A stretch of DNA of 38,146 nucleotides, from the NCBI GenBank assembly GCA_022865355.1, contig JALHST010000113.1, positions 1-38,146 on the forward strand. The letters are read 5' to 3'. Positions 11,060 through 36,693 of the stretch are shown here, in pieces. The stretch's first letter is position 1. The number at the start of each line of letters is the position of its first letter. The DNA is from Maribacter sp. (GTDB lineage Bacteria > Bacteroidota > Bacteroidia > Flavobacteriales > Flavobacteriaceae). The translations under genes and the position numbers were made by a program. Under the pieces are notes generated by a model. It was given only the letters and a program-made list of their open reading frames with translations, had not been told where the DNA came from and made no database searches.

Positions 11060-12529
11060 TTAACGGTAGATTAGGGCATTTTTAAAAGTGCCTTCATCGG
11101 TTGACAAATCGATTAAAAAGCCATTTATTAAGGCATATTTAATACTTCCCTCCCTTTCTAATAAAAAAGTGGGATTGATTCCTACCTCCATTTTGAATCC
11201 AGGAAGTTTATAGTTCAGACCTAAGATGTTAATCGGAAATGGGGATTCTTTCAGGTCTTGCGGGATGTTTTCCATACGGACATAGGTATAGCCGGTTTTT
11301 AGCAATTTGCTAATATCCATTTTTTTTAGATCTTCTAAATTTTTTACCTTCTCTGGATAGATACGTCCGGGCTTAACCGTAAAATCGGTTGCATCAAAAG
11401 TTTTATAGCCATAATAGGTAGAAAGATCGCCTTGGTCGATAATTCGACTACTATACCAGAAGTCAAAATTTCCAGGCTTATCAACTTCTGTGCGATTGAT
11501 TCCAAGATCTAAACGGTACGCTTTGCCCAGAAGGTCATAAGTTATATTGTTGATCTTTAAATCGAACAACTTCCGATCGTTCTCCGGGATTTTTTCATAT
11601 GCCTCCAATGGTATTTCGTTATAATTGTTCATGGCAATGGTATATATTGCCGATAGGATCGAAACATAGTTCAATTTGCGTATTTGCTGTTTTTCTGAGT
11701 CATTGGTATATCCCCCAGATTCAATAAGAATGGCACTTGTACCCCATTTCTGGATATTATCGCCAAAAGCCCGGGGTTCAAAATCATCGTTGTATCTTCC
11801 CACCTGGCCCGGCGCGTATTTTTGAATAATAGCATTCATGAAGACGATTACTTTCATGGCATTGCCACGTACCACATTGATGTCTTTTTCATAATTATAG
11901 GCCGGTGCCAAATAAGAAATAGTTGCTGGTTTATCTGTTAATTCGGCATTATAATAAGTACTCTGATCATGAAGATTGAAACCGAAATCGGCCTGCAGGC
12001 TATCGCGTACCCTTTTCAGCGTCTGCGCTTCCGGCGACTGCAAGCTAATAGCATCCCTATTGATATCTATTCCCAGACGATTTCTTCTTTGAAACACTTC
12101 TGCCCCATCCGGATTCAACATCGGTAAAAAGTGTAAGGTTAGATGATCGAATATTTCATGTTTCTCCGATTTAAAATCCTCGCTGTCCAAAAAATTGAAT
12201 ATATCGAACATAGCCTGGGTCGCGGTAGGCTCGTCACCATGCATTTGCGACCAGAGAAATACATTGGTCTTTCCGGTTCCTATACTGATTAAGTAAAGGT
12301 TTCTGCCTTCAATCGACTTCCCGACAACATTGACCTTGAATTTTGGGTTGCCCTGGTATTTGGCAATCAAAGGTTGCAGGTCTTGGTATTTTATGCGTCG
12401 TTTATTTAATTTTGGTTCCTTGTATTTTTCATAAGTTTCATACAATGAACCTGTAAGGTCGTTTTCCTGGGGGTAAACGGTAAAGGTTACCATTATAAAT
12501 AAAGCGGTGCTAAAAAATTTGAAATTCAT
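11060..12529 (-). CDS. M14-family zinc carboxypeptidase, exported
   Basis: The start is the ATG at 12527-12529, where a signal peptide begins (MNFKFFSTALFIMVTFTVYPQ). The frame is open to 12685 but that part overlaps the amidase gene. The 489-residue enzyme has the M14 zinc site: SQMHGDEP (His97, Glu100) and NLHDQSTY (His187). It also has NPDGAEVFQRRN and DINRD for substrate carboxylate binding, and the catalytic Glu in ILIESGGYTND. Members trim C-terminal residues from peptides or peptidoglycan stems. The C-terminal third is beta-rich and unassigned. The start overlaps the 3' end of the amidase gene by 20 bp, suggesting translational coupling and a shared cell-wall role. Confidence 0.9.
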   Translation of the reverse strand: MNFKFFSTALFIMVTFTVYPQENDLTGSLYETYEKYKEPKLNKRRIKYQDLQPLIAKYQGNPKFKVNVVGKSIEGRNLYLISIGTGKTNVFLWSQMHGDEPTATQAMFDIFNFLDSEDFKSEKHEIFDHLTLHFLPMLNPDGAEVFQRRNRLGIDINRDAISLQSPEAQTLKRVRDSLQADFGFNLHDQSTYYNAELTDKPATISYLAPAYNYEKDINVVRGNAMKVIVFMNAIIQKYAPGQVGRYNDDFEPRAFGDNIQKWGTSAILIESGGYTNDSEKQQIRKLNYVSILSAIYTIAMNNYNEIPLEAYEKIPENDRKLFDLKINNITYDLLGKAYRLDLGINRTEVDKPGNFDFWYSSRIIDQGDLSTYYGYKTFDATDFTVKPGRIYPEKVKNLEDLKKMDISKLLKTGYTYVRMENIPQDLKESPFPINILGLNYKLPGFKMEVGINPTFLLEREGSIKYALINGFLIDLSTDEGTFKNALIYR

Positions 12530-13196
12530 GGGTAGGTGATTTTTGTGGTACAGGCTTGAATTTAAGATTTTTGTTGGTATTGCGTACCTTTCGCACGAAA
12601 TCTTCGCCAGGATCGTTCTTTTCGGTTCGATAGTTTTCATCTTTCTCAAGCCACAACAGATGCCCTTCAAAATTGGTATATTCATAATGGCCTATCAAAT
12701 AGTCGATGTTATACTTTTTGGTGAGATATTTCACCAGCCAAATATTCGATTTTAGCTGCGCCTCGGTCAATGGAAGGTCCTTCGTTCCCCCAACGTTCTC
12801 GATGCCAATGGCACAGTGATTGAGGCCGATTACATGCCGGGCCATGGTCGTTTCGGGAAGCAGACGATAAATTTTCCCATCCCTGTCAACGAGAAATTGC
12901 GACGAAACATTCAGGGCGCTTGCGTTCTCTAATTCGGGCCGCCACGTAGGAAGCACCGATTTTTCAAAAGCTTCGAAGGTAGCCTCAAGAGTTGGCAATA
13001 CCGTCCAATGCAAGACGATCATTTTCGGCACTATGGTAGGTGAATTCACAGTCAGACCGTATCGATCCGATAGGTAATCGATGGTCATAATTTTACGTGT
13101 TTCATCAAAAACGATGGGCTTGTCGATTATTCTCTTGCCAGGCGCACAAGATCCCAATACGAGCAGAAGGGTGTAGACCAAGTTTCTTTTTGTCAT
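12510..13196 (-). CDS. Amidase_2 (PGRP-like) N-acetylmuramoyl-L-alanine amidase lipoprotein
   Basis: This 228-residue protein has a lipoprotein signal ending LVLGSC (Cys17). The amidase_2/PGRP fold is complete: VLHWTV (first zinc His), SSQFLVDRDGKIYRLLPE, MARHVIG, CAIGIENVGG, LIGHYEYT (second zinc His) and KNDPGEDF (the Asp corresponding to the AmpD ligand). It would cut the MurNAc-L-Ala bond of peptidoglycan or muropeptides while anchored in a membrane. An insertion of about 15 residues (GHLLWLEKDENYRTEK) lies between the last two motifs. Its 3' end overlaps the M14 carboxypeptidase start, and it starts 20 bp after the DinB-like gene. Confidence 0.9.
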   Translation of the reverse strand: MTKRNLVYTLLLVLGSCAPGKRIIDKPIVFDETRKIMTIDYLSDRYGLTVNSPTIVPKMIVLHWTVLPTLEATFEAFEKSVLPTWRPELENASALNVSSQFLVDRDGKIYRLLPETTMARHVIGLNHCAIGIENVGGTKDLPLTEAQLKSNIWLVKYLTKKYNIDYLIGHYEYTNFEGHLLWLEKDENYRTEKNDPGEDFVRKVRNTNKNLKFKPVPQKSPTHEFQIF

Positions 13197-22814: not shown

Positions 22815-23678
22815 ATGAGGCAACTAAAGATAATCAAGCAGGTAACCAATCGGGAATCAAAATCATTGGACAAATACTTGCAGGATATCAGTAAAATAGA
22901 TTTGATCAACGCCCAAGAGGAGGTAGAATTGGCTCAAAGAATACGCGCTGGAGATCAAGCTGCCCTTGAAAAATTGACCGTTTCAAATCTTCGGTTTGTT
23001 GTTTCGGTGGCTAAACAATACCAAAATCAGGGATTGACATTACCCGATCTTATCAATGAAGGCAATCTAGGTCTTGTTAAGGCCGCTAAACGGTTCGATG
23101 AAACCCGTGGGTTCAAATTTATATCCTATGCCGTTTGGTGGATTAGGCAGTCGATCTTACAGGCGTTGGCCGAACAGTCCCGGGTGGTGCGTCTGCCACT
23201 GAACAAAATAGGCTCGATCAATAAGATCAAGAAAACTTTTTCATATTTGGAACAGGCACATGAACGACCTCCTTCGGCCGAAGAAATTGCCAAAGAACTG
23301 GAAATGACCGTGAATGAAGTGAAACAGTCAATGAAGAACGCGGGCAGACATGTTTCGATGGATGCGCCTTTGCGTGAAGGAGAAGATTCTAATTTATACG
23401 ATGTTCTACGATCGGGCGAATCTCCAAGACCAGATACTATTTTAATGCAACAGTCTTTGAACACCGAGATCAATCGGGCCTTGGAGACCTTGTCCCCGAG
23501 GGAAGCCGATGTGGTAAAATTGTATTATGGCATTGGGGACCAACAGTCAATGACCTTGGCGGAAATTGGGCATACATTTGATTTAACGCGTGAAAGGGTA
23601 CGACAGATACGGGAGAAGGCCATACGTAAACTTCGACATAATTCTAGAAGTAAATTATTAAAGACCTATTTAGGATAG
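22815..23678 (+). CDS. rpoD: Primary sigma factor RpoD/SigA (Bacteroidota type)
   Basis: This 287-residue sigma-70 factor is the usual primary sigma of Bacteroidota, which lacks region 1.1. Region 1.2 is near the N-terminus ([15 protein letters not shown]). Region 2 has [35 protein letters not shown] and [17 protein letters not shown]. Region 3 has [14 protein letters not shown] and later SMDAPL. Region 4 has [14 protein letters not shown] and the helix-turn-helix [28 protein letters not shown]. It binds core RNA polymerase and recognises the TTG/TAnnTTTG promoters of this phylum. Transcription ends at the strong hairpin 10 bp downstream. Confidence 0.97.
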
Positions 23679-24648: not shown

Positions 24649-25953
24649 ATGAATAAAAGAAAGATGATATCGTTAAGGAGGCTCTCAGTGTGGATCATGC
24701 ATATGGTCATGTACCTTGGTGCCGTTGCAACCGGTATGGCCTCAATAACATCACATTCGAATGACTGCCATACCCCTAAAGGAGCGAGTGTAATTCTCAC
24801 AAGCAATAGTTTCAATGCCCACAAGGGCAGCAGCTTTACCATAGTTGGGCAAATGCAGGAAATTGAGCGGGGACTCACTTTGATACATTTTAACACTCCC
24901 GAAAAATTCGAATATGCCACCTTCGACACCTATGCCAGCGAAGAAGCGGTCGACGAGCTGATCGCGATAATACAGGAGATGCAAAAAAATAATGCGGTAT
25001 TTGCTATTCTGGCGCATGACTCCGCAGCCAATGGTTCGATGAAGCAGTCTGACAAGTTATCCAAACTGGGACTACTCCAATTGAGTACATTGAAAGGTCG
25101 CCAGGCTTACATTATGCACAACTTTTATGGCAAGATAGATGAAACCGTTGATAATTTATCCACAAATTTGGAGGTAAACCTTTCTGAAAAACTGTCGGAC
25201 AACCATATTTACTTTCCGAAGATTAAATATAGTTATGTGCCGAATATTGATCGTTATATCGCCCATGGTGGTGGCGAAGTCAATGGCATCAAATCCACGA
25301 ATTCCAAAGAAGCGCTAGATGAAAGTTATCGAAAGGGATTTCGACTTTTTGAAATGGATATTACCGAGACATCCGACGGAAAATGGGTGGCGTCACATGA
25401 CTGGAATATGTGGGCAAGATTTACCGATTATGAAGGATCATTGCCCCCAAGTTATTCAGAATTCATGAAACACAAGATTTATGGTGATTATACTACCCTA
25501 GATCTTAAGGCTATCAATGAATGGTTCAGGGCACATCCCGATGCAACCTTAGTGACTGACAAAGTAAATGATCCAATTGCATTTGCCAACGCATTTGTAG
25601 ATAAGAGTAGATTGATAATGGAGCTTTTTAGTTTAATGTCAGTCGAAGAAGCTTCAAAAAACGGTATTAACGCCATGATTTCACAAGATCCCTTGCTCAA
25701 TATCGTTGGTGATAAGATAAATTATTTAGAAGTAAACAAGGTTAAGTTTGTAAGCTTATCCAGAAAAATCATAGCCAATCAAGCAAAATTGATGCTTCAA
25801 TTGCGAGATCACGGTATAAAAGTATATGTCTACAATGTAAATTTTGATCCTGGAAAGGATGAGAAATATGTTGAGGAAATTGAATTTGGATTAATTTATG
25901 GTATGTATGCCGATAAATGGGTTTTTGATAATAAAGCCTTACTATCAAATTAA
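24649..25953 (+). CDS. ILEI/FAM3-like domain fused to GDPD-like phosphodiesterase
   Basis: This is a 434-residue exported or membrane-anchored protein. The N-terminal hydrophobic segment (WIMHMVMYLGAVATGM, about 15-30) follows a basic start; ATG 24664 is an alternative. Residues about 45-165 match the interleukin-like EMT inducer (ILEI/FAM3) fold: RGLTLIHFN, the key FDTYA (92-96), then VFAILAHDSA and ending GRQAYIMHN. Residues about 200-434 form a GDPD/PI-PLC-like barrel: YIAHGGGE (His206), FEMDITETSDGKWVASHDW (Glu235, Asp237, His250). Catalytic residues look intact. The first domain may bind a glycan or polymer end while the second cuts a phosphodiester. It converges with the polymer operon at 26215-35842 and is a likely partner; that is inference. 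Confidence 0.8.
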   Translation: MNKRKMISLRRLSVWIMHMVMYLGAVATGMASITSHSNDCHTPKGASVILTSNSFNAHKGSSFTIVGQMQEIERGLTLIHFNTPEKFEYATFDTYASEEAVDELIAIIQEMQKNNAVFAILAHDSAANGSMKQSDKLSKLGLLQLSTLKGRQAYIMHNFYGKIDETVDNLSTNLEVNLSEKLSDNHIYFPKIKYSYVPNIDRYIAHGGGEVNGIKSTNSKEALDESYRKGFRLFEMDITETSDGKWVASHDWNMWARFTDYEGSLPPSYSEFMKHKIYGDYTTLDLKAINEWFRAHPDATLVTDKVNDPIAFANAFVDKSRLIMELFSLMSVEEASKNGINAMISQDPLLNIVGDKINYLEVNKVKFVSLSRKIIANQAKLMLQLRDHGIKVYVYNVNFDPGKDEKYVEEIEFGLIYGMYADKWVFDNKALLSN

Positions 25954-26214: not shown

Positions 26215-27558
26215 CTAAAACATTACTTCATAGGTTAGTCCGACCGATACTCCCCAAAAGTAATGGCCCGCATTAAATACCAATTCTTGCCTTAGTACCC
26301 CCATATTGGTTCTGTATATATTTGAATTGCTTTTACCGGTAAATTGATACTCGAGGTTCAAGCGTTGCGATTCAACATAAAGTAAGGTCTCGGCCAATAG
26401 TTCATCGCCTGAAAAAAATTGCCGCATTTCAGGAGAATAGCCCATCCCAAAATTAGTTCCGAAATAATTTTTGGCATCCTTTAAATACTTACGTACTAAT
26501 ATATTTCCAGATATCCTCGTCATATTATCCGGTCTCGGGGTAATATACGATCGAAGAGAGAAATAATAATTACCGCGATAATGCCCTAGCGAATTTGTAA
26601 TTACAGAAATGTTTTTGGTATCGAATTTTATATAACGCCCACCCGCTGAAAATTCATAGGCACCTGGCAGATTTATATAAAGATCTCCCCCTATTTTATG
26701 GTCGGGATAAATGCTGGCATTCGAATAACCATAATTGATGTATGCATATAAACGCCTTGAGAACTTTGGGTAAAAATCCAGGTCGTACTGTATTCCATGC
26801 TTGCCAAAGCGATTACTATAATTAATCCTTGGTATTATGCTACCCGCCAGCGTTTGCCGTTTATAAGAGATGCTGGAATAAATCATTGGATCATAGCGCT
26901 GATCATAGATGATAAACGAATTGTTAAGTGATATACTATTATTTAGCTGGGGTTCGCCCTTTGTTTCTGGCTCGGTTAAATTCGTCGGATTCGCTGCCGA
27001 ATCTTTTTCCTCTTCTTTTTTTGAAGGACCAGGTATTTCATTTGGTTTGTTTTTCGAGGCGACTTTTGTTATCGTCCCACCATCTTGATTAAACCAAGCC
27101 TTTTCAGGATATTTCATATTTTCGATATGATTCAAGGCTAATTCTTTCAAACGTTCAATTTCCATATTGCTTTTTAGGTAGAACAGGGCTTTATTGGCCA
27201 ACCCCAAGGCTATGGCATCGTTCTTTGCATAGAGTTCGTTCTTTATGGCGGAAATCCACACATCCTCACTGTTTCGTTCTATAGAGGTAATCTTGTTAAA
27301 TTCAGACCTCGCTTTTTCATATTGACCAGTCCAACTATACGTGCTTGCCAATAAGTTACGGGCTTTCACATTATTGGGCTTTTTATCAATGGCTTCAACG
27401 AGCATTTCCGATGCCGATATGTAATTTCCGTTAAAGGCAAGATCATGGGCCTTTACATAGGCAGCATCGTAATTGTCATTAAAGGCGGTCTTCTGAGATC
27501 TTCCATAAAAACAGAAGAAACCGAAGATCAAAATATGATATGTATATTTTTTTATCAT
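26215..27558 (-). CDS. YaiO-family TPR / outer-membrane beta-barrel protein
   Basis: This 447-residue protein has a signal peptide (MIKKYTYHILIFGFFCFYGRSQ). A TPR block covers about residues 30-150: YVKAHDLAFNGNYISASEM, NVKARNLLASTYSWTGQYEKA. Next is a charged low-complexity linker (about 165-205) and a barrel of about 240 residues ending in a terminal Phe (YEVMF), typical of outer-membrane insertion. The YaiO-like combination of TPR and barrel is used in exopolysaccharide systems such as PgaA, where TPRs guide the polymer to the pore. It is the last gene of the operon, 50 bp after the LtaS-like gene, whose C-terminus carries a similar TPR block. Confidence 0.87.
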   Translation of the reverse strand: MIKKYTYHILIFGFFCFYGRSQKTAFNDNYDAAYVKAHDLAFNGNYISASEMLVEAIDKKPNNVKARNLLASTYSWTGQYEKARSEFNKITSIERNSEDVWISAIKNELYAKNDAIALGLANKALFYLKSNMEIERLKELALNHIENMKYPEKAWFNQDGGTITKVASKNKPNEIPGPSKKEEEKDSAANPTNLTEPETKGEPQLNNSISLNNSFIIYDQRYDPMIYSSISYKRQTLAGSIIPRINYSNRFGKHGIQYDLDFYPKFSRRLYAYINYGYSNASIYPDHKIGGDLYINLPGAYEFSAGGRYIKFDTKNISVITNSLGHYRGNYYFSLRSYITPRPDNMTRISGNILVRKYLKDAKNYFGTNFGMGYSPEMRQFFSGDELLAETLLYVESQRLNLEYQFTGKSNSNIYRTNMGVLRQELVFNAGHYFWGVSVGLTYEVMF

Positions 27559-27608
27559 TATTTTTTTAGGCTGATCCCTATGTTGCCCTTTATTTGTTGG
27601 TTTGAACT

Positions 27609-29942
27609 TTAATTAGATGCCGTAATGCCAGCTTTTCTGGCCTCTCTTCGTGCTCTTTCTATCTTATCGTCAATTTCATGAACGTTTGAACTGTTCTGCT
27701 CGGCCAGTGTTATTAAGTTGATAGCCTCTTGGTTTCTGTCAGACCAAAAATAGACATCGAACAAGGCCGAATATGATTCTATGTAATCCGGATTGATCTT
27801 GATGCAGGCTTGCAAGATTTCAATTGAAGCTTCATAATTGTCAATCCAAGCGTTTATGCGACCCATCAATATTTTGGTATCTATGTGACTTGGGGCAGTT
27901 GATAATATATATCTGCATAACAACAGAGATTTTTCATATTTCTTGTCAAAGGCCAGCTCACGGGCTTTAAGAAATCCTGAATCCGGATTCTGGCCATTAT
28001 AGACACTATTGAGCCAGACGATATCACTATCGGAGAATTTTTCCGTGGGCAAAGAAAATATAGTAAGACTATCGGGTATTATTTTATTGTTTGTAGTTAC
28101 GTAGGCATTTATCACTTTGAAGACTTCCAACTCAGCTTCTGCCTTGGAGCCTCCTAGGGAAGTACTCAGATCCATATTCTCGTCTATACTATAGATCTTT
28201 CCATCCGAGAACAGCTTTTCCCCACTCAGGTATTCCTTCAATTCATTTTTGTTTCGCATAAGCGGAATTTTCTTTACCGATCTAAATTTCGGGTAGGTAT
28301 CCAAGGCATCGCCCATCCAAGCTACCTCCTGCGGCATTTTAAATTCAAATTTGCTCTCAAGGAGCGCCAATAAGGTCGGGGTAACATCAAAATGCGAAGA
28401 AACAGCACTAAACTTCTTAGGGATTTTCACTAAAGGCCCGAATATCATTAATGGTACATGAAAACGGCTCAGACTGTTTCTTTGCGGTATCGGTATTAGA
28501 CGATGATCACCTGTAACAATAAAAATGGTGTTCTCGTAATTGGGTTGCTTTTTATATGCTTCTAGGACATATTTTAATGCGTTGTCGGTGTATAACAACG
28601 AAGCAAATACATTGTCATTTTTTTCAATCACTCTCCTGACGTTTCTATCATAGTTACCCTTTGCTAAAATCTGTTTAACCTTTTCCACGTACATTTCCTG
28701 TTGTGGTGGTATGAAGGGTTCATGTGTACTGATGGTCATATAAACTTCCAATCTCGGCTGATCGGCATTTCTAGGTAGACTCATGCTTTTTTTGAAAAGT
28801 TCTTTGTCTGGATACCCCCAGGAAGAGCCTGCCGCATCCTTTTCCTGCATTTCGTAGTTGTTTCCAAACCCTGATTTATCCAATACAAAATCAACATTCT
28901 CACTTTGCAGAAACCGATCTATATTGTCAAATGAACTGTTGGTGCCTTGGTAATAGGAAGTATAATATCCATTGTTTTTTAATATGCTTAATAATGTCAA
29001 TTTATTCGGATATTTCTCGAGCTCCATAAAGCCACTTTTTCCGAAGGGAAGCGACCCCATCAATGAGGGGAGTACACCAAAAGTCCTACCCGCATTACTT
29101 AAACAGTTTTCCCAATACAATGATTTAGAGGTTAGCGTGTCTAAAAACGGCGTAAACCCACCATATTCGGCACCCTCCCCTACAAAATCCCTTCCGAGGC
29201 CTTCCACCATTATAATAACGATATTGGGTTTCTCTGCCTTTAGATTAAAATATTCACCTAAAACATTCGCTACGGGCTGCGATTTGATCAAAGGATATTC
29301 CGCTTCTGAATTATAGGCCTGGACTTCCGTAGAGGTATTATAGAGGTTCAATGCCAGGTACTGGCTCTTGTTTTGATTGATTGGTCTCCCCTCCACAAAA
29401 AGGGTCATGATGAACAAGCTAAACAGTATGATCGTAAAAGGATACATCTTGCTGATAATGTGATAATATTTAGATGTGATCTTATACAGAACAAAGAACA
29501 GCGCTATGATGACCACAATGCCGATAAATAGCGATAAGGACAAGCCCCCTGAATTGGCAATCGTCATTTTGATATCCGCCATGCTATAGCCCAATAAATC
29601 GGAACCCAAGGGTACCAATGCAGTACAATAATAACTAATGAGGACGGCCTCAATAATCAACAATAGGATAAGTAGGACAAAAACAAGATTAAACCCATAC
29701 CTCGGCCGAAAATTTTCCCAAAAATTAAAGGGAAAGGCAAGGATAATCCCGACCAATGACGCATACCCAATCTGGTGAAATGCGGCAATGAGTAAGCTCA
29801 TGCTCAATATGGTATCTACCACTCCCTTGAAATACAGCGTGGTATATTGGAAAATCGAAAGTACGAGCAAACAACCATAGAATGAGATTATCAATCTGGT
29901 ATATTGCTTTAATGTATATCTATCCAATTGGCTTGTATTCAT
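27609..29942 (-). CDS. LtaS-like membrane phosphotransferase/sulfatase-fold enzyme with C-terminal TPR
   Basis: This 777-residue protein starts with five likely membrane spans (about 15-185), as in lipoteichoic acid synthase. It continues with an extracytoplasmic alkaline-phosphatase-fold domain. Catalytic marks are IVIIMVEGLG (Glu247), NAGRTFGV (Thr287 as nucleophile in place of the sulfatase Cys), STHEPF and TGDHRLIP (metal Asp and His). The Thr and membrane layout favour transfer of a phosphoglycerol or phosphoethanolamine group rather than sulfate removal. After about residue 650 comes a TPR block (FLKARELAFDKKY, then GRINAWIDNYEASIEIL) and a charged tail. LtaS proteins normally lack this. 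It sits 10 bp after the GT2 gene. Confidence 0.87.
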   Translation of the reverse strand: MNTSQLDRYTLKQYTRLIISFYGCLLVLSIFQYTTLYFKGVVDTILSMSLLIAAFHQIGYASLVGIILAFPFNFWENFRPRYGFNLVFVLLILLLIIEAVLISYYCTALVPLGSDLLGYSMADIKMTIANSGGLSLSLFIGIVVIIALFFVLYKITSKYYHIISKMYPFTIILFSLFIMTLFVEGRPINQNKSQYLALNLYNTSTEVQAYNSEAEYPLIKSQPVANVLGEYFNLKAEKPNIVIIMVEGLGRDFVGEGAEYGGFTPFLDTLTSKSLYWENCLSNAGRTFGVLPSLMGSLPFGKSGFMELEKYPNKLTLLSILKNNGYYTSYYQGTNSSFDNIDRFLQSENVDFVLDKSGFGNNYEMQEKDAAGSSWGYPDKELFKKSMSLPRNADQPRLEVYMTISTHEPFIPPQQEMYVEKVKQILAKGNYDRNVRRVIEKNDNVFASLLYTDNALKYVLEAYKKQPNYENTIFIVTGDHRLIPIPQRNSLSRFHVPLMIFGPLVKIPKKFSAVSSHFDVTPTLLALLESKFEFKMPQEVAWMGDALDTYPKFRSVKKIPLMRNKNELKEYLSGEKLFSDGKIYSIDENMDLSTSLGGSKAEAELEVFKVINAYVTTNNKIIPDSLTIFSLPTEKFSDSDIVWLNSVYNGQNPDSGFLKARELAFDKKYEKSLLLCRYILSTAPSHIDTKILMGRINAWIDNYEASIEILQACIKINPDYIESYSALFDVYFWSDRNQEAINLITLAEQNSSNVHEIDDKIERARREARKAGITASN

Positions 29943-29952
29943 CTAATAAACT

Positions 29953-31383
29953 TTACGTTGCCTTGGCAAAACCCTTTCGCATCTGGGAACCCCAGCTGGA
30001 TTTAATTTTTAATAGCTTTTTAATATTCCCTCTAACCGCAGACCATACCACGATGGGATGAAATACAATGGGTTCTATGACTGCGCATAGCATCAAAATC
30101 AAAATATCCTTTGTACGGCTGTATTCATTATATGCGCATACATCCCATAGAATTGCATAGAAAGAGAACATGATTGAAAACATATAGACAGTGACGGTGA
30201 TTGCTATAAAAAAATCCCAGTAAAGTATGCCCAAATAATAGAAGACCAGTACGGTAATAAAGCCGAAAAATTCCAACAAGGGAGAGAGCCACTCATAGAA
30301 GAACCAATACGGATAACTTAGCAAGCCTAACCGTCCGAACTTGGAATTAAAAAACATGTCCTTATGTTTAAAAAGCGTCTCTAAATTGCCTCTTGCCCAT
30401 CTATCCCGCTGATTCACAAATATTTTAAGGTCTTCCGGTACTTCCGTCCAACATAAAGAATCAGGCATATACTCTATGGTGTAGGGCAGCTTTTTTTCGT
30501 GCATAAACCGCCTCATTTTGAAGACGATCTCCATGTCCTCCCCTACCGTATCAGTGTCATACCCGCCAACGGCCAAAGCAATTTCCCTGTCAAAAAATCC
30601 GAAGGCCCCTGAGATAATCAACAGACTGTCTATACGACCCCAGGCCATTCTTCCAAGAATAAAAGATCGGGTATACTCCAATAACTGAAAGCGGGCAAGC
30701 CAGTTCTTTGGCAACTTTATTTCTTCCAAATGCCCGCCCGAGATCTTACATGAATTGGCCACTCGAATCACCCCTCCTACTGCTATGACGCGTTTAGCCG
30801 AGCGTTGGTAAAAAGACTTCACCACGTGCAATAAAGCATCTGGCAACAACAAACAATCTACATCGATACAACCAATGTATTTATTTTCTGAAAGGGCTAT
30901 CCCAGAATTGAGGGCATCTGATTTCCCCCCATTTTCCTTGTCGACGACCGTGAGTTTCGAAAAAGAACGCTGTTTTGATTTATAGATACCCCTGATGGGT
31001 TTCGATTTCCATTCGGGATCAATTTGTTGCTCGATTTTTTCAAGATCGTAGGCCTTTATCATCTTTTCTAGGGTATCGTCCTTGCTTCCATCATTCACCA
31101 CCATAACCTCATAATTGACATAACGCAATGATAATAAGGAACGAATGTTTTCGACGATGGTCAATCCTTCATTGTATGCCGGCGCAATAATAGTAATGCT
31201 TGGGGCCAAGGGCGAGGCCATTATTTTTGACATATCCCCAAAACTATTCTTGTTCCGATAATGAATATAATTTCGCGTGGAGAGATACCCCATAAGACTG
31301 AACATCATGAATAGCACGATTGTAAAAATCAGAAATACGATGTTTATATACTCAATGATGATATCTAAAAGTCCGCTATCCAT
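29953..31383 (-). CDS. Membrane GT2 glycosyltransferase (processive polysaccharide synthase type)
   Basis: This 476-residue enzyme has one N-terminal membrane span (about 10-33), a cytosolic GT2 domain and three or four C-terminal spans, like PgaC and hyaluronan synthase. Motifs are ITIIAPAYNEG, VVNDGSKDDT, KENGGKSDALNSGI, IGCIDVDCLL (Asp174, Asp176), VGEDMEIVFKMRR (catalytic Asp) and QRDRWARGN (the QxxRW polymer-binding motif of processive synthases). It would build a beta-linked chain while pushing it through the inner membrane. The donor sugar cannot be read from sequence. Its 5' end overlaps the HEAT gene by 8 bp, so the two are coupled. Confidence 0.92.
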   Translation of the reverse strand: MDSGLLDIIIEYINIVFLIFTIVLFMMFSLMGYLSTRNYIHYRNKNSFGDMSKIMASPLAPSITIIAPAYNEGLTIVENIRSLLSLRYVNYEVMVVNDGSKDDTLEKMIKAYDLEKIEQQIDPEWKSKPIRGIYKSKQRSFSKLTVVDKENGGKSDALNSGIALSENKYIGCIDVDCLLLPDALLHVVKSFYQRSAKRVIAVGGVIRVANSCKISGGHLEEIKLPKNWLARFQLLEYTRSFILGRMAWGRIDSLLIISGAFGFFDREIALAVGGYDTDTVGEDMEIVFKMRRFMHEKKLPYTIEYMPDSLCWTEVPEDLKIFVNQRDRWARGNLETLFKHKDMFFNSKFGRLGLLSYPYWFFYEWLSPLLEFFGFITVLVFYYLGILYWDFFIAITVTVYMFSIMFSFYAILWDVCAYNEYSRTKDILILMLCAVIEPIVFHPIVVWSAVRGNIKKLLKIKSSWGSQMRKGFAKAT

Positions 31384-34084
31384 TTAACTTTTTGATTAAC
31401 ATATTTGACATGGATCGCAAGTGACCTAGCAGCGAGGTAGCGCTTGAAAGTGTTTCCCTCTCGCAATCGGCAATATTTTCGAAAAGAGGGGTCAGTTCGA
31501 ATTCTACGTTGAAAATATCGGGGGCTTCCTGGGGGTGTTCTTTTATTGTACTGGTCTTACCCGAAGGCTTGCTTTCAAAGTCAAATAGCTCATTTTCAAA
31601 AGAACCATCCACTTTATGGGATATATTCGTGTCCTTACGAGGAGATTCGAGCGCTAAACGTTTGTTCAAGGCGCTCAAGGCAATTCTTGACTTTTGACGA
31701 ATCTGGTCGTCGGGATGATGACTTAGACCCTCTAAAAAATCTAGCTCCTTTTCATCCATCACTTCTATCAGCGTGTCGAGTAGAATAATTTGAGACTCTC
31801 TATCATTATTTTCAAAAAGTTCCTTGATAAGGCTAGACGATGGGGAAAGTTCCTTTTTGGAACCTACGTCTTGGTTTTTCTGAGGATAGGGTTCCCAATG
31901 TGCAAATTTTTTCACGAGGTGGCGGATCCGTTCCTTGATTTCTGAATTCGTTTCTTGTTCGAGAATCGACAGCAGCAAAGGTATTTCCCTTTCATCACCC
32001 AATTCTTCGATATCATCCAATAATTGTATCATGGCCAATGTTTCAGCATCATAAAATTGGGGTTTTGCCAAAAGGCGAAAAGAATCTTCGAAATGCTCAT
32101 TCCCCGAATCTCGCGCCACTTCATGTTCTTCGACTTTTGAGGCCATAGCGTTTTCCTCTCTATCGAGCCCAACGTCATCTTTCGGCCCTGTGATGAACGC
32201 TTCGTCATCGTATGCTCGTTCGGCCGATAAAATTTCGTAGCAAATGTCAATACCGCGAATATTTTTTATGTCAATGTCTTTTATAGAAGGTGGAATCATT
32301 GCCAAACTATTTTCTTCCCGCAGCACCATATTACCTTCCGTAATTTTATCGACATTTGTTGGGCCGTGATTTTTTGAAGGTATTGAGTTGATTGCTTCAA
32401 AGACTACTTCTATGTCTTTATGGCTATTCGTTGAGGTCTTCCCCCGGGAAACAATTTTAAACCGGTAGGGCTGGTCGTCTTGAACTTCATTTACCGCTTC
32501 TGTAGTAATCAGGCTTGCTTTTTCAACTACCAAAGGAAGAAAATTTAACTCTGGATCATCGAACGGTCCTTTTTCACCTTCATCATTTATATTTAAGCTG
32601 GCATGAGGGGCCTCGGTAACCGGTTGTACCTGTTGAAATACTACCGGTAGATCTAAAATATGTCGTTCATTTGCCGCATCAAGGTCATCGTGAACGTCTT
32701 TCAATTCAGGTCTGGAGTTATCAACTACAATGGGTAAAAAGCCCAGGTCAATGTCAGTCACCTCAATTTGCTCCAATTTATTTACTTCACGATCGGATTT
32801 TTCTTTCTCCTTTGGTTTATTGGCAACTTCCGGGAGAACTACTTCAACTACGACCTGTATCTCATGCAACTTTTTCCAGTCAGGGACGAACTCGACATTT
32901 TCATTGGTGGGACTATGCTCTATAATTAAAGTTTCCTCTATATTAGAAAAAAGATGAGGTGGGGTTACTTTCGCGGGCGGAATATCTTTGGGAATAGTGT
33001 ATTGCGAGATATCTTCAATGCCCTTGGTAGGTAGAATGCTTTCTGGAGCAATGGCATTTATAGCGCTTATCGCCTTGCTCTTGACCGAAAAGCTTCGCTC
33101 TTTTGATTCTATCGATCGTAGAAACAGTATATCATTCTCATTACCAATGGAAGCGATTGCATCCAATATTGAAATTTTAAGGGGTATAGAACTTTTCCAA
33201 AAAATGATTTTAAGTATTTTTACGGCCTCGACAATATTGAATTCCTTTATACAATTGATGGCTTCTAGTTTTATTTGATTGCTTTTATGTTTTACCAATT
33301 CGATAATAGATGCGTAGGCATCATTTTGACTGTAATATTTGATCAACCTAAGGGCAAAAAGAACCGTATGTGTGTTGTTTGAAGTAAGCCATGCCTTGAA
33401 TGCAGGGGGTTGATAGTCTTCAAAATTTCTAAGGACATCCAATAATTTAAGTTGTTGCCATTCCGATATCTTATAGGTGGTTGTGTCAAGAAAGTAGTTG
33501 ATACCCTCGTGTTTTAGGGTTACCGTGGCAATTTCGGCTTGTTTTCTAATGGTGCTCCTTTTATCGTTGATAAACTTGATGATGAAATTATAGGATTCCT
33601 CCACATTCATTTGTGTTAGTTCCAAAATCCCTTTAGAGACTACCTCCCATCTCCAGCTTTTTAAATTTGCATAAGCATCATTTTGTAGCCCTAAATCGGT
33701 ATATAGTTTAAATAGACGTTTTTGGGAATCCCCGGAAATATCCTTACCCAGGTCTAACAGAATTTCGACGAACACTTTACGATTAAATCCATCTTTCAAT
33801 AATTCCCTTATTTCGATTTTATGGTGTACATAGTCGGTTTTTTCGTTTTTGGTCGCATCGTTCTCCATAAAGAGAAACTCACTAATCACCGGCGAGAGGG
33901 CTTTCTTTTGAAGCGCCACCTTTTTTGATTTTGAGTTGATTTTATTTCTGAAATAGAAGACTCCAAAAAAATAAAGAATGGCGAGACTAATAAACAAACA
34001 AGACAAATCCCACAAAAGATCCGTGTGGATCTTTGGGGCATCTATGAGCGTATAAACTATATATGTCGGTTTAATTATCTGCAA
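31376..34084 (-). CDS. Membrane-anchored HEAT-repeat scaffold protein
   Basis: This 902-residue protein has a single N-terminal span (LSCLFISLAILYFFGVFYF, about 27-46) and then cytosolic helical HEAT-like repeats at about 90-350. A long low-complexity acidic linker follows (about 350-650), then a second HEAT block (about 655-770) and a tail. In the linker the short motif FLPIVVD / DLPVVFQ / FLPLVVE recurs three times between about 443 and 515. No catalytic motif is seen; a scaffold or regulator of the adjacent synthase is likely. No ATG precedes the membrane span: the start is TTG 34082-34084, 1 bp after the response-regulator stop, and the 3' end overlaps the GT2 gene. Confidence 0.8.
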   Translation of the reverse strand: MQIIKPTYIVYTLIDAPKIHTDLLWDLSCLFISLAILYFFGVFYFRNKINSKSKKVALQKKALSPVISEFLFMENDATKNEKTDYVHHKIEIRELLKDGFNRKVFVEILLDLGKDISGDSQKRLFKLYTDLGLQNDAYANLKSWRWEVVSKGILELTQMNVEESYNFIIKFINDKRSTIRKQAEIATVTLKHEGINYFLDTTTYKISEWQQLKLLDVLRNFEDYQPPAFKAWLTSNNTHTVLFALRLIKYYSQNDAYASIIELVKHKSNQIKLEAINCIKEFNIVEAVKILKIIFWKSSIPLKISILDAIASIGNENDILFLRSIESKERSFSVKSKAISAINAIAPESILPTKGIEDISQYTIPKDIPPAKVTPPHLFSNIEETLIIEHSPTNENVEFVPDWKKLHEIQVVVEVVLPEVANKPKEKEKSDREVNKLEQIEVTDIDLGFLPIVVDNSRPELKDVHDDLDAANERHILDLPVVFQQVQPVTEAPHASLNINDEGEKGPFDDPELNFLPLVVEKASLITTEAVNEVQDDQPYRFKIVSRGKTSTNSHKDIEVVFEAINSIPSKNHGPTNVDKITEGNMVLREENSLAMIPPSIKDIDIKNIRGIDICYEILSAERAYDDEAFITGPKDDVGLDREENAMASKVEEHEVARDSGNEHFEDSFRLLAKPQFYDAETLAMIQLLDDIEELGDEREIPLLLSILEQETNSEIKERIRHLVKKFAHWEPYPQKNQDVGSKKELSPSSSLIKELFENNDRESQIILLDTLIEVMDEKELDFLEGLSHHPDDQIRQKSRIALSALNKRLALESPRKDTNISHKVDGSFENELFDFESKPSGKTSTIKEHPQEAPDIFNVEFELTPLFENIADCERETLSSATSLLGHLRSMSNMLIKKLNG

Positions 34085-34085
34085 A

Positions 34086-34457
34086 TCATCTTTTGTTCAG
34101 TTCACGGGACACGCGAACTAATAGCTCGGACGGACTTACCGGTTTTGATATAAAATCATTGGCTCCAAGTTCAAATGCATTCAATACATTTTCTTCATTT
34201 CCGGCGGAGGAAATAATAATAATGGGAATGGTCGACATGATTTTATTTCGAATAAAATCGATCAATTCCATTCCAGAAAAATAAGGCATCATGATATCAC
34301 TAACGATGATATCGGGTAATTCCTGCGACAAATAATCCTTTACTTCCTTCCCGTCTTTACACAGCTTAACTACATAACCCCCTTTTTGCAATCTGTAATC
34401 TAACAAGGAGGCCAATAATTCGTCGTCTTCCGCCAATAAAAGCGTTTTTCTTTCCAT
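34086..34457 (-). CDS. Single-domain response regulator
   Basis: This 123-residue receiver domain has no output domain. The acidic pocket is complete: Glu10-Asp11-Asp12, the phospho-acceptor Asp54 in IVSDIMMP, the Ser pair in IISSAG, and Lys105 in ISKPVSP. Such stand-alone receivers act by binding a partner. The neighbouring HEAT protein and Hpt protein, each 1 bp away, are the obvious candidates. It would control synthase assembly or activity post-translationally rather than through DNA binding (inference). Confidence 0.95.
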   Translation of the reverse strand: MERKTLLLAEDDELLASLLDYRLQKGGYVVKLCKDGKEVKDYLSQELPDIIVSDIMMPYFSGMELIDFIRNKIMSTIPIIIISSAGNEENVLNAFELGANDFISKPVSPSELLVRVSRELNKR

Positions 34458-34458
34458 T

Positions 34459-34881
34459 TTAAATTTTCTTATTGCCCAATTGAGTAAAGGCAGCGTCTAT
34501 CTTCTTTTCCGCAGCCAAATATTCTGTTATAAAAAGGTTGTTCAAGTACTTTATCCGGTCTAAATTTTTATCGGTTTCACATTGTTCATGCATTTCAATC
34601 ACGATATCTCGAAGATGATAGGTATGCATCATTGCGAGACCGCACTTGATTTTATGGGCTGCGAGTTTTAATTGTGCAAAATCACCGTTATTGATGAATA
34701 ATTTCGCTCCACCTATAAATTCGACGGCATTTTGTTTGTACAGCCTGATCAACTCTTCCAACAGACCCATATCGCCCATACAATCATCAAGAATGGCCGC
34801 CAGCTCAATTGTCACATTTTCCCCGAGGTCTTGTAAATCGAAATTCTTTTCGCTCGCCTCACTATGTTGCATCTTTTTCAT
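34459..34881 (-). CDS. Hpt (histidine phosphotransfer) protein
   Basis: This 140-residue four-helix Hpt domain has the phospho-histidine at His76 in LAAHKIKCGLAMM, the usual HxxKG pattern with Cys inserted before Gly. It would pass a phosphoryl group to or from the receiver encoded 1 bp downstream. ATG 34881 or 34872 could be the start. The gene follows the kinase-like gene by 67 bp. Confidence 0.9.
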   Translation of the reverse strand: MKKMQHSEASEKNFDLQDLGENVTIELAAILDDCMGDMGLLEELIRLYKQNAVEFIGGAKLFINNGDFAQLKLAAHKIKCGLAMMHTYHLRDIVIEMHEQCETDKNLDRIKYLNNLFITEYLAAEKKIDAAFTQLGNKKI

Positions 34882-34948
34882 TATTGACTTATTTTCTTTG
34901 TATCCTGGCCATTTCCATACCTGATTCCCAGCCGCTTAAGGGTTGTGC

Positions 34949-35842
34949 CTATTTTTTTCTGCCTTTATTAAAAGGAATCCCAAATTTGAATAGGGTACCC
35001 TCAGAGCCATGCTTAAAAATGTTGATTGAGCCTCCTATGTCCTTAATCAACAGCTTAATTATCTCATTAGCGTAATAATCATGATTCTTGGTAGTCATCT
35101 TGTTACAATGATTTGTCTGTATTAATTCACATGAAAAATTATCGATTTGGAATTCAAGGAAGATGGTGTTATGAGTGCTTAACTTTGAGGCGACCTGCAG
35201 GTATATCTCTCCTTTTTTGGCGTATTGCAGCGTCTTTCCCAACATATCGAGTACTATATGCATGACCCTGGTCATGTCACCAATTACAGCATAGGGAAGG
35301 TCGGCGGCATAATGGGCTACAATCTTGAGTTCGTCGTGAACAATCAGATTTTCAGCAAGAAATTTGGCATTGTTGACCAATTCGTACAAATCAAACTCGA
35401 TTTCTACTGATGCATGTAACTCATTTTCATGTGAACTGCATGCTAAAAGTGCATCGACCTTGCCCAATAACGCGGTGGATGTTGTTTGAATTTCGACCAC
35501 TTGATCCCATTGTTGTCGTGTTGCTACCTCGTCTTTTAAAAAACTGAGAATCCCGATGAAGTTATTCAGGGATTCCTTCAAAAGCATACCAACTCCACCA
35601 TATACTTGAAAAGCATCGCTTAGCTGATCTCGATGATTTACTAGGGACGTTTTGCTATTAATACTATGACCTATGCGCGTCGGGGTAGTTCCAATCGAAA
35701 TTTTTTCTTGTACGTGATACTTGAAGTCTTCGAACAATTTTTTAAGTTGCTCGGCGTCGGCCACTTTTAATTCTTCAAAGGAATAGCTGGCCAGAACAGA
35801 TTCTAGATCAGATAATTTAAAAAGTAAGTCTTTCGTTATCAA
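34949..35842 (-). CDS. Degenerate histidine-kinase-like protein (pseudokinase)
   Basis: This 297-residue soluble protein resembles a HisKA-plus-HATPase core but lacks catalytic residues. The DHp helix region (GMLLKESLNNFIGILSFL, 85-102) has Met86 where the phospho-His should be. The ATPase part starts at about 140. Its N-box equivalent (IVLDMLGKTLQYAKKGEI) has no Asn for magnesium, and no DxGxG box is seen. The late GSEGTLFKF (279-287) still fits the G2 box. It probably binds Hpt or receiver partners without phosphorylating them. The only start with full length is TTG 35840-35842. It is the first gene of the seven-gene operon. Confidence 0.75.
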   Translation of the reverse strand: MITKDLLFKLSDLESVLASYSFEELKVADAEQLKKLFEDFKYHVQEKISIGTTPTRIGHSINSKTSLVNHRDQLSDAFQVYGGVGMLLKESLNNFIGILSFLKDEVATRQQWDQVVEIQTTSTALLGKVDALLACSSHENELHASVEIEFDLYELVNNAKFLAENLIVHDELKIVAHYAADLPYAVIGDMTRVMHIVLDMLGKTLQYAKKGEIYLQVASKLSTHNTIFLEFQIDNFSCELIQTNHCNKMTTKNHDYYANEIIKLLIKDIGGSINIFKHGSEGTLFKFGIPFNKGRKK

Positions 35843-36693
35843 CGGTTTTGGTTTGGGGGTTTAATTTTGAAGTTGAAATCCCATCATATGCCCTTCATAG
35901 CAAATTTCCTATTTTAATGGTTATGACTTATATTGCTAAACTCCTTATTATATCGGCCTTGTGCAATAAAATGTTACCTAGGTTTCTATTTATGTTGTCA
36001 AATAGCTTTATTTGTATGTAGTATAAAATTCTTACAACAGGATAAAATTTGCACCTTCCCTCCTATCAGCGTTTTTTAGCACGTGTTTAGGACCGTAGAA
36101 AATGTCGAATACCGATGTAGATATATGGTCTGGAATGAATTAGCCAAGGATTGTGGCCATCGCAAATTATAATGAGATTAGTGTAAGAAATTTCGTCGAT
36201 TGCATCCATTATACCTAACGTTTGGAAGGTCATGTCAATAATCTCAAAAATCATAGAGTAAGGCTAGTTTTTACTTGGCGGATCGTAGAGACTGAACCGG
36301 ATTTCTTGAACCTTCAAAAATCTAGAAAAGCTTCTGTAAACACCTTATGATGGTGCATGAACATTCATAGGCTTTGTGAGCCAATTGCCCAAGATCAAAT
36401 TGAAATGGCCTCGGGATCTAAGGAGTTCCAGGTATGGCCACCAACTGAAATAAGTGCTTAAATTCAGGCTTGTAAACGCCTGTTAAATGGGCGGGCATCC
36501 TCCAAGGTGTCAAGTTCTATTTTGATGAAGGCAATGATACGGTAGGATGATGCGAACCTTCCAATTTCTTTAGTAATGTTAAAAAAATGATTAAAAGGGG
36601 GTACAATCATGAAGTGTTGTCCAAACTTAGTAGCTGCAATTTACGATCGGTCTTAGACCGCAAGCGGACTGTTTGAAGGCAATTTTTGCAAAA
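35843..36693. other. Long gene-free stretch upstream of the polymer operon
   Basis: About 850 bp lie between the kinase-like gene and the thioesterase. The part next to the operon (35843-36060) is AT-rich and probably holds its promoter, but I find no clear TTG/TAnnTTTG pair. The remainder has only short frames, with no recognisable domain, tRNA or insertion-sequence ends. Confidence 0.5.

Follow-up and report, generated by a model that had tools for sequence, protein, structure and literature searches.

A conserved Bacteroidota operon joining a candidate exopolysaccharide synthase to an LtaS-like protein, a receiver and a HEAT-repeat protein

The locus and its genes

A 38,146-nucleotide stretch of contig JALHST010000113.1 from Maribacter sp. 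(assembly GCA_022865355.1, 3.97 Mb in 319 contigs), hereafter the window, carries seven open reading frames (ORFs) on its minus strand between positions 26215 and 35842. An earlier, sequence-only reading of the window had placed seven genes at exactly these positions, where all of them were found. In order they encode a degenerate remnant of a histidine kinase (gene 1, 34949..35842, 297 amino acids (aa) from a TTG start), a histidine phosphotransfer (Hpt) protein (gene 2, 34459..34881, 140 aa), a stand-alone receiver (REC; gene 3, 34086..34457, 123 aa), a HEAT-repeat protein (gene 4, 31376..34084, 902 aa), a processive GT2 glycan synthase (gene 5, 29953..31383, 476 aa), an LtaS-like phospho-transferase (gene 6, 27609..29942, 777 aa) and a protein with tetratricopeptide repeats (TPR) and a YaiO-family outer-membrane beta-barrel, the proposed exporter (gene 7, 26215..27558, 447 aa). 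The intergenic gaps from gene 1 to gene 7 are 67, 1, 1, -8, 10 and 50 bp; the description of most gaps as overlaps or spacings of 1-10 bp thus holds for four of the six, and fails for those of 67 and 50 bp.

Domain searches agree with the identities proposed earlier for genes 2 to 7. Pfam identified the receiver (E 2.7e-26), the HEAT protein (HEAT_2, 3.2e-9), the GT2 domain (2.1e-20), the Sulfatase/LtaS superfamily in gene 6 (3.8e-33) and, in gene 7, the YaiO barrel (2.8e-61) together with TPR. The Hpt match lies just under its cut-off (3.2e-5; 24.5 bits against 24.6), and the assignment draws in addition on alignment and on an intact histidine in the motif HKIKC.

Conservation across the Bacteroidota

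The seven genes are one instance of an operon that is conserved in Bacteroidota and made up of a receiver, a membrane-anchored HEAT protein, a GT2 synthase, an LtaS-like protein and a YaiO barrel, and the set is more than a chance assembly because its order recurs across the phylum. The sequence-only reading had suggested looking for co-occurrence of the HEAT, GT2, LtaS-like and YaiO genes in Bacteroidota, and their order proved not to be unique to this genome. When 60 genomes, the window's own included, were searched with the HEAT protein, matches were found in 16; in all 15 of the other HEAT-bearing genomes a GT2 gene adjoins the HEAT gene, mostly with a receiver before the latter (G030 being a weak match). 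A second set, of named loci, was drawn by a scan with a GT2 alignment and comprises the best 80 of 581 relatives, a sample chosen by GT2 similarity. Judged by their titles almost all of these 80 are Bacteroidota, one metagenome-assembled genome (MAG) being titled Chlorobiota, and the genera include Maribacter, Zobellia, Robiginitalea, Flavobacterium, Polaribacter, Sphingobacterium, Mucilaginibacter, Chryseobacterium, Empedobacter and others. Fourteen loci with short flanks were set aside; the 66 that were counted contain HEAT in 66 cases, the receiver in 64, YaiO in 61 and the LtaS-like protein in 54, nine of the latter fused to GT2. At 51 of the 66 the fetched stretch also contains, at some point, an ORF longer than 340 aa that matches the receiver, mostly a hybrid kinase.

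To lessen the bias towards GT2 similarity, 247 genomes that are at least 90% complete were drawn evenly from the phylum, and the synthase was found at E<=1e-100 in 65 of them. The 70 loci annotated in this sample (L185, which has no open GT2 frame over the threshold, was left out) include HEAT at 51, the receiver at 52, YaiO at 47 and the LtaS-like protein at 26. A custom model placed HEAT directly upstream of GT2 at 37/37 loci whose GT2 scored at least 600 bits, at 14/24 between 500 and 600 bits and at 0/9 below 500; ten of the 19 HEAT misses were checked in Pfam, where nine pass the HEAT_2 cut-off and one falls below it. HEAT stands immediately upstream of GT2 even where REC, LtaS or YaiO was not found. 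HEAT and GT2 therefore form the most constant pair; a receiver and YaiO usually accompany them, and an LtaS-like gene is often added. The sole type of fusion seen among REC, HEAT, GT2 and LtaS is GT2-LtaS, at 20 distinct loci. One genome (L123) carries two HEAT-GT2 modules about 6.5 kb apart, with an LtaS-like gene after only one of them.

The synthase and the putative exporter

The QxxRW motif reported earlier for the GT2 protein is present as QRDRW, alongside the catalytic residues D98, D174/D176 and E282-D283, whose conservation was checked in 160 sequences. Its highest NCBIfam score is to PgaC/IcaA (151.5 bits; cut-off 422.3), the CelA model gives 33.8 bits against a cut-off of 699.1, and a GT2 profile found just four matches among solved structures at E<=1e-10, all of them partial. 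Gene 7 scores well over the cut-offs of both YaiO models (PF19413, 206.9 bits against 23.9; TIGR04390, 173.3 against 32), bearing out its description as a TPR and outer-membrane barrel protein; among solved structures it was matched through its TPR only.

The systems for poly-N-acetylglucosamine (PNAG), PgaABCD and IcaADBC, which we take as a comparison, share with the operon the synthase family that gives the top score and, presumably, an exporter built of TPR and an outer-membrane barrel. A PNAG operon was nonetheless rejected: the synthase is far from the PgaC cut-off, the PgaA model reaches 16.2 bits on the seven genes against a cut-off of 366.65, and neither the deacetylase PgaB nor PgaD was found among the seven genes in Pfam or NCBIfam. 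A cellulose operon was likewise set aside on the CelA score and the lack of a BcsG match (see below). The yaiS-yaiP-yaiX-yaiO stretch of E. coli (NC_000913) also unites a GT2-type gene, a YaiO barrel and glycan-modifying enzymes, but it has a deacetylase and an acyltransferase in place of the LtaS-like protein and no REC or HEAT gene, and its yaiX is broken by IS2.

An LtaS-like protein with intact and degenerate active sites

Gene 6 encodes five hydrophobic membrane segments followed by an outer domain of the alkaline-phosphatase superfamily and a C-terminal TPR region, and an AlphaFold model (predicted local distance difference test score, pLDDT, 86.7) likewise contains membrane helices, catalytic domain and TPR. 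The best sequence matches of its profile in the PDB are 3lxq, LtaS2 and LtaP; among the best 50 of 1442 Foldseek matches, 3lxq, LtaS and LtaP rank at the top, then PbgA, then sulfatases. Seven residues are in place, namely E247, T287 (in GRTFG), H407, D479, H480, H517 and D519, whose aligned counterparts in LtaS we take to have ligand roles. As had been proposed, the putative nucleophile is a threonine: Thr287 (codon 29082..29084, minus strand, derived from the gene coordinates) aligns at the LtaS threonine position, and the C/S-x-P-x-R motif that we take to mark sulfatases is absent there. By sequence and modelled fold gene 6 thus resembles the LtaS-type phosphoglycerol transferases more than sulfatases, with which it does not sort, and the sulfatase reading was rejected. 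With LtaS, LtaP and OpgB it shares five transmembrane helices, the outer catalytic domain and the aligned threonine and metal-site residues, LtaS and LtaP being among its closest solved folds; it differs in its C-terminal TPR, in its GT2 partner and in falling short of the LtaS and OpgB equivalog cut-offs (64.8 against 970, 49 against 572 and 36 against 574 bits).

The sequence-only reading had left the transferred group as phosphoglycerol or phosphoethanolamine, and the choice can be narrowed in that phosphoglycerol seems the likelier of the two. PMC11470070 describes BcsG as a five-transmembrane phosphoethanolamine transferase recruited directly by cellulose synthase, and transfer of phosphoethanolamine by gene 6, as by BcsG on cellulose, would accord with the common superfamily, the same five-helix layout and the binding of BcsG by its synthase. 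We nevertheless regard it as improbable, given that no BcsG or EptA family was matched by gene 6 in Pfam (E<=1), in NCBIfam (E<=0.1), among 29 PDB sequences (E<=0.001) or in the best 50 of the 1442 fold matches.

The active site is not kept throughout. Within the window's clade, 19 of 39 aligned copies retain all seven residues, 19 have lost key residues and one (L052) is partial but intact as far as it can be read. The degenerate copies (L041, L042, L048-L050, L053, L059, L060, L062, L063, L066, L068, L069, L071-L073, L076, L024 and L026), likely pseudoenzymes beside synthases of the same family, typically carry lysine, arginine or another residue for H407 and serine, threonine or asparagine for D479 (L071 is partial). 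In the LtaS tree, from which five partial rows were left out, they fall into a single clade, with L076 apart from it, and mostly have longer end branches. In L064, from a Kriegella species, the LtaS-like gene (11431-12558) has lost residues ~205-635 in frame, whereas the membrane part (58% identity) and the TPR (46%) are kept. Outside the clade 33 of 36 copies preserve all seven residues, with threonine or serine at 287; the three exceptions have asparagine at 519 (L081), are cut (L093) or are broken (L114).

Degenerate and domain-deleted copies point to a structural role in addition to a catalytic one. Taken further, the LtaS-like protein might be mainly a bridge, its membrane part and TPR linking synthase to barrel, with catalysis secondary and lost more than once. 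The 19 degenerate copies of 39, most of them full-length proteins, the in-frame deletion in L064 and the 20 GT2-LtaS fusions all speak for such a bridge; the complete active sites of the window copy and of the 33 copies outside the clade speak against it, as do ten separate copies of 604-694 aa that have no match to a TPR-bearing model, so that the TPR is not universal. We regard a mainly structural function as possible, though doubtful. PbgA/YejM (6v8q, 6xlp), the next fold group after LtaS and LtaP, is presumably a relative that lacks transferase activity, as the degenerate copies described here would, and one that we take to have neither a GT2 partner nor TPR. Two further LtaS-like proteins are encoded in the window's own genome (G000:C53:5803-6657 and G000:C3:12045-12902); no match to this GT2 turned up in the stretches that were read.

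The GDPD-family neighbour

Convergent to the operon lies a plus-strand gene (24649..25953) of the glycerophosphodiester phosphodiesterase (GDPD) family (Pfam, 34.7 bits over 23.6), which also bears an ILEI-like segment scoring under the ILEI cut-off; its membership of the system is uncertain, and the protein found no match among solved structures at E<=0.01. A GDPD gene accompanies 18 of 19 catalytic LtaS-like copies of the clade and none of 20 degenerate or deleted ones (Fisher test p 3e-10, which ignores shared descent). GDPD was counted genome-wide, but at the locus for the window and L046; in L025, L047 and L065 it lies in the genome away from the locus. L052 was left out of the GDPD count, L067 and L074 because contig ends make their LtaS state, catalytic or degenerate, not readable, and L101 was left out of the genome-wide search.

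Several observations temper this association. On a concatenated tree LtaS state requires one change and GDPD two, and an independent-pairs test has two pairs only, so that the link seems to come down to about one transition; GDPD is weakened by this shared descent as independent proof of glycerol phosphate and was set aside as such. Outside the clade, moreover, each of the 18 genomes with a catalytic LtaS-like copy that were searched lacks it (L081 being scored as catalytic although it has Asn519), and so does G001, inside the clade and likewise with a catalytic copy; some GDPD-negative genomes are MAGs or fragmented, so its absence may be overstated. The trees differ in detail: the GT2 tree alone, with GDPD scored at the locus only, gives four and five changes for LtaS state and GDPD, 15 of its 44 inner branches being open, and the LtaS tree itself gives two for LtaS state. 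In the concatenated tree catalytic copies nest among degenerate lineages and copies outside the clade are catalytic, a history that may reflect repeated loss, a replacement or the misplacement of a branch. The association mildly favours glycerol phosphate.

Receiver, HEAT protein and a putative split phosphorelay

The HEAT protein comprises a single predicted transmembrane helix near aa 27-45, as the sequence-only reading had it, followed by the basic stretch RNKINSKSKK, a HEAT domain, a long linker and a second HEAT segment, and the domain is accordingly predicted to be cytosolic and anchored at the membrane. An AlphaFold model of aa 1-350 (pLDDT 91.0) is a helical solenoid. The receiver retains Asp54 and Lys105, and among receivers passing 90 bits the acceptor Asp is present in 123/125 and the Lys in 125/125; no DNA-binding domain was found in the receiver gene by Pfam.

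Control by cyclic di-GMP (c-di-GMP) is unlikely, because no GGDEF protein was detected in the window's genome or in any of the 16 HEAT-bearing genomes among the 60; this mode of control was set aside. Two of the 60 genomes have a GGDEF match at E<=0.001, one of them over the cut-off, and neither has a HEAT match. The search itself works, since it found GGDEF in 8 of 14 control genomes.

Gene linkage, an intact receiver devoid of a DNA-binding domain and the failure to find GGDEF proteins lead us to propose that the receiver, once phosphorylated, acts on the synthase by way of the HEAT protein. Alternatively, receiver and HEAT protein could serve localisation, complex assembly or a task elsewhere in the cell, with no gating of the synthase. 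HEAT proteins are generic scaffolds, the fold matches shown being designed repeats, importin and PP2A scaffolds, and HEAT also occurs where no receiver was detected; yet HEAT keeps its place immediately before GT2 even at loci with no REC, LtaS or YaiO found, the receiver gene is without DNA-binding domain, and the transmembrane helix would anchor HEAT at the membrane. We consider a function unconnected with gating unlikely.

Gene 1 consists of a conserved N-terminal segment of ~50 aa and a kinase-like region that aligns with the kinase part of hybrids at 26-28% identity (blastp E 3e-26 to 1e-36), and in this sense the earlier term 'kinase-like' is apt; as a kinase it fails, for the H-box His, N-box Asn and G-boxes are all gone, no Pfam kinase domain appears at E<=1, and NCBIfam kinase matches lie far below their cut-offs. 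In L024, L025 and L026 a single gene encodes kinase, receiver and Hpt (the domains of L025 shown by Pfam), and gene 2 matches the C-terminal Hpt domain of the relatives' hybrid kinase. Genes 1 and 2 are thus, on alignment, the split remnant of a hybrid kinase-receiver-Hpt protein; in L027 and L028 just the N-terminal segment and the Hpt are left of the hybrid. Gene 1 is not visible at four of 42 clade loci; at the other 38 all three kinase motifs are intact in 20, all are lost in nine and nine are partly matched by the patterns. Most of the nine motif-less loci keep Hpt and receiver (L072 has no visible Hpt, and no match was obtained for the Hpt His of L043). Among wider relatives, hybrid kinases with PAS, GAF or CHASE3 domains adjoin the receiver, three examples of which were checked in Pfam. 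The phosphorelay switch proposed earlier therefore survives in part: in the named loci REC mostly, and HEAT always, travels with the synthase, and the His-Asp relay residues (receiver Asp and Lys, Hpt His) are present in the window, but the local kinase is degenerate, so that any relay would have to draw on a different kinase; genes 1 and 2, moreover, derive from one hybrid gene.

That the whole operon is decaying and the system being lost from this species would fit the state of gene 1 and a dipeptidase remnant upstream. Genes 2-7 are nevertheless open with their tested catalytic residues intact, and all three kinase motifs are missing from 9/38 clade loci with a visible gene 1, most of which keep Hpt and receiver; decay of the system strikes us as very improbable.

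Proposed mechanism and relation to known systems

We favour, with modest confidence, the explanation that the genes form a synthase-dependent exopolysaccharide secretion operon with phospho-decoration, gated via receiver and HEAT protein. The GT2 protein, judging by its family and catalytic residues, would polymerise and extrude a glycan. The LtaS-like protein, seated beside the synthase by its five membrane helices, would add a phospho-group to the emerging chain, most likely phosphoglycerol drawn from phosphatidylglycerol. The TPR of the LtaS-like and YaiO proteins would provide passage through the periplasm and the YaiO barrel the exit. Control would be post-translational, exerted by the phosphorylated stand-alone receiver via the membrane-anchored HEAT protein; with the local kinase decayed, a kinase encoded elsewhere could feed the Hpt protein or serve as its drain. 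The GDPD-family neighbour might perhaps trim or recycle phosphoglycerol. The core of the earlier proposal, a conserved synthase-dependent exopolysaccharide machine whose modifying enzyme is a phospho-transferase and not a sulfatase, agrees with the conserved gene order and with the LtaS fold and residues.

A number of findings weigh against this explanation. The synthase had no match at E<=1e-100 in 182 of the 247 genomes of the phylum sample, making the module far from universal, and the HEAT protein had none in 44 of the 60 relatives. A receiver on the same strand within 5 kb upstream was found at 28/37, 18/24 and 1/9 loci of the three GT2 score classes (at least 600, 500-600 and below 500 bits); HEAT can thus occur without a detected receiver, and such loci count against a fixed REC-HEAT pair. 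The LtaS-like protein was undetected in 12 of the 66 named loci, so that decoration is not essential to the machine, and its LtaS score in the window is far from the cut-off. The window locus has no catalytic histidine kinase and no intact kinase next to the receiver. Finally, the exopolysaccharide product is deduced from the genes, and its sugar cannot be named.

In its type II Bcs system with BcsG (PMC11470070), E. coli likewise combines a processive GT2, an adjacent five-transmembrane enzyme of the alkaline-phosphatase superfamily that adds a phospho-group and an outer-membrane exporter. Bcs relies on c-di-GMP control, BcsB, BcsC and BcsE, and phosphoethanolamine, in contrast to the LtaS-type enzyme, YaiO barrel, REC and HEAT genes and GGDEF-free genome found here. 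That BcsG binds to its synthase, and reportedly influences the integrity of cellulose synthase (PMC11470070), offers a precedent for both catalytic and structural roles. As the sequence-only reading had supposed, no named system with this gene set was found in the literature searched, which did not cover most subscription papers. A term search of the main text of PMC11260094, on structural colour, gave no hit for HEAT-repeat, YaiO, glycosyl, sulfatase or response regulator; PMC12419801 has a single HEAT-repeat passage, on beta-catenin, and PMC8117528 has no NfrA, NfrB or YaiO.

The operon may thus represent a phylum-wide class of synthases switched not by c-di-GMP but by a phospho-receiver docking on a membrane-anchored HEAT protein, with an LtaS-type enzyme that adds glycerol phosphate in a Gram-negative and that in one lineage became a dead bridge more than once; this broader picture is tentative, and we put it somewhat below an even chance. 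The parts are of known kinds; their combination and the proposed control are, to our knowledge, new. This small conserved gene set, present in genera including Maribacter, Zobellia, Flavobacterium, Sphingobacterium and Chryseobacterium, is a direct candidate for the means by which Bacteroidota regulate synthase-dependent polysaccharides in the absence of c-di-GMP. A Gram-negative exopolysaccharide decorated with glycerol phosphate would follow from the operon, whose natural variants (a dead kinase, a transferase domain dead or deleted, fusions) separate catalysis from scaffolding.

Neighbouring features

The window also carries a sigma-70 factor gene (287 aa, 22815-23678), and past the YaiO end of many clade loci stands an opposite-strand ORF of the same length. 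In L084, L085, L088, L092, L098, L107 and L117 an opposite-strand ORF of 384-399 aa lies between the LtaS-like and YaiO genes; that of L085, the only one tested, matched no Pfam family at E<=0.001. Upstream of the operon, at 36147-36673, is the remnant of a gene that we read from its sequence as dipeptidase-like, recovered as two tblastn pieces (E 1.7e-15 and 7e-5), and a full-length relative of it sits upstream of the operon in L027.

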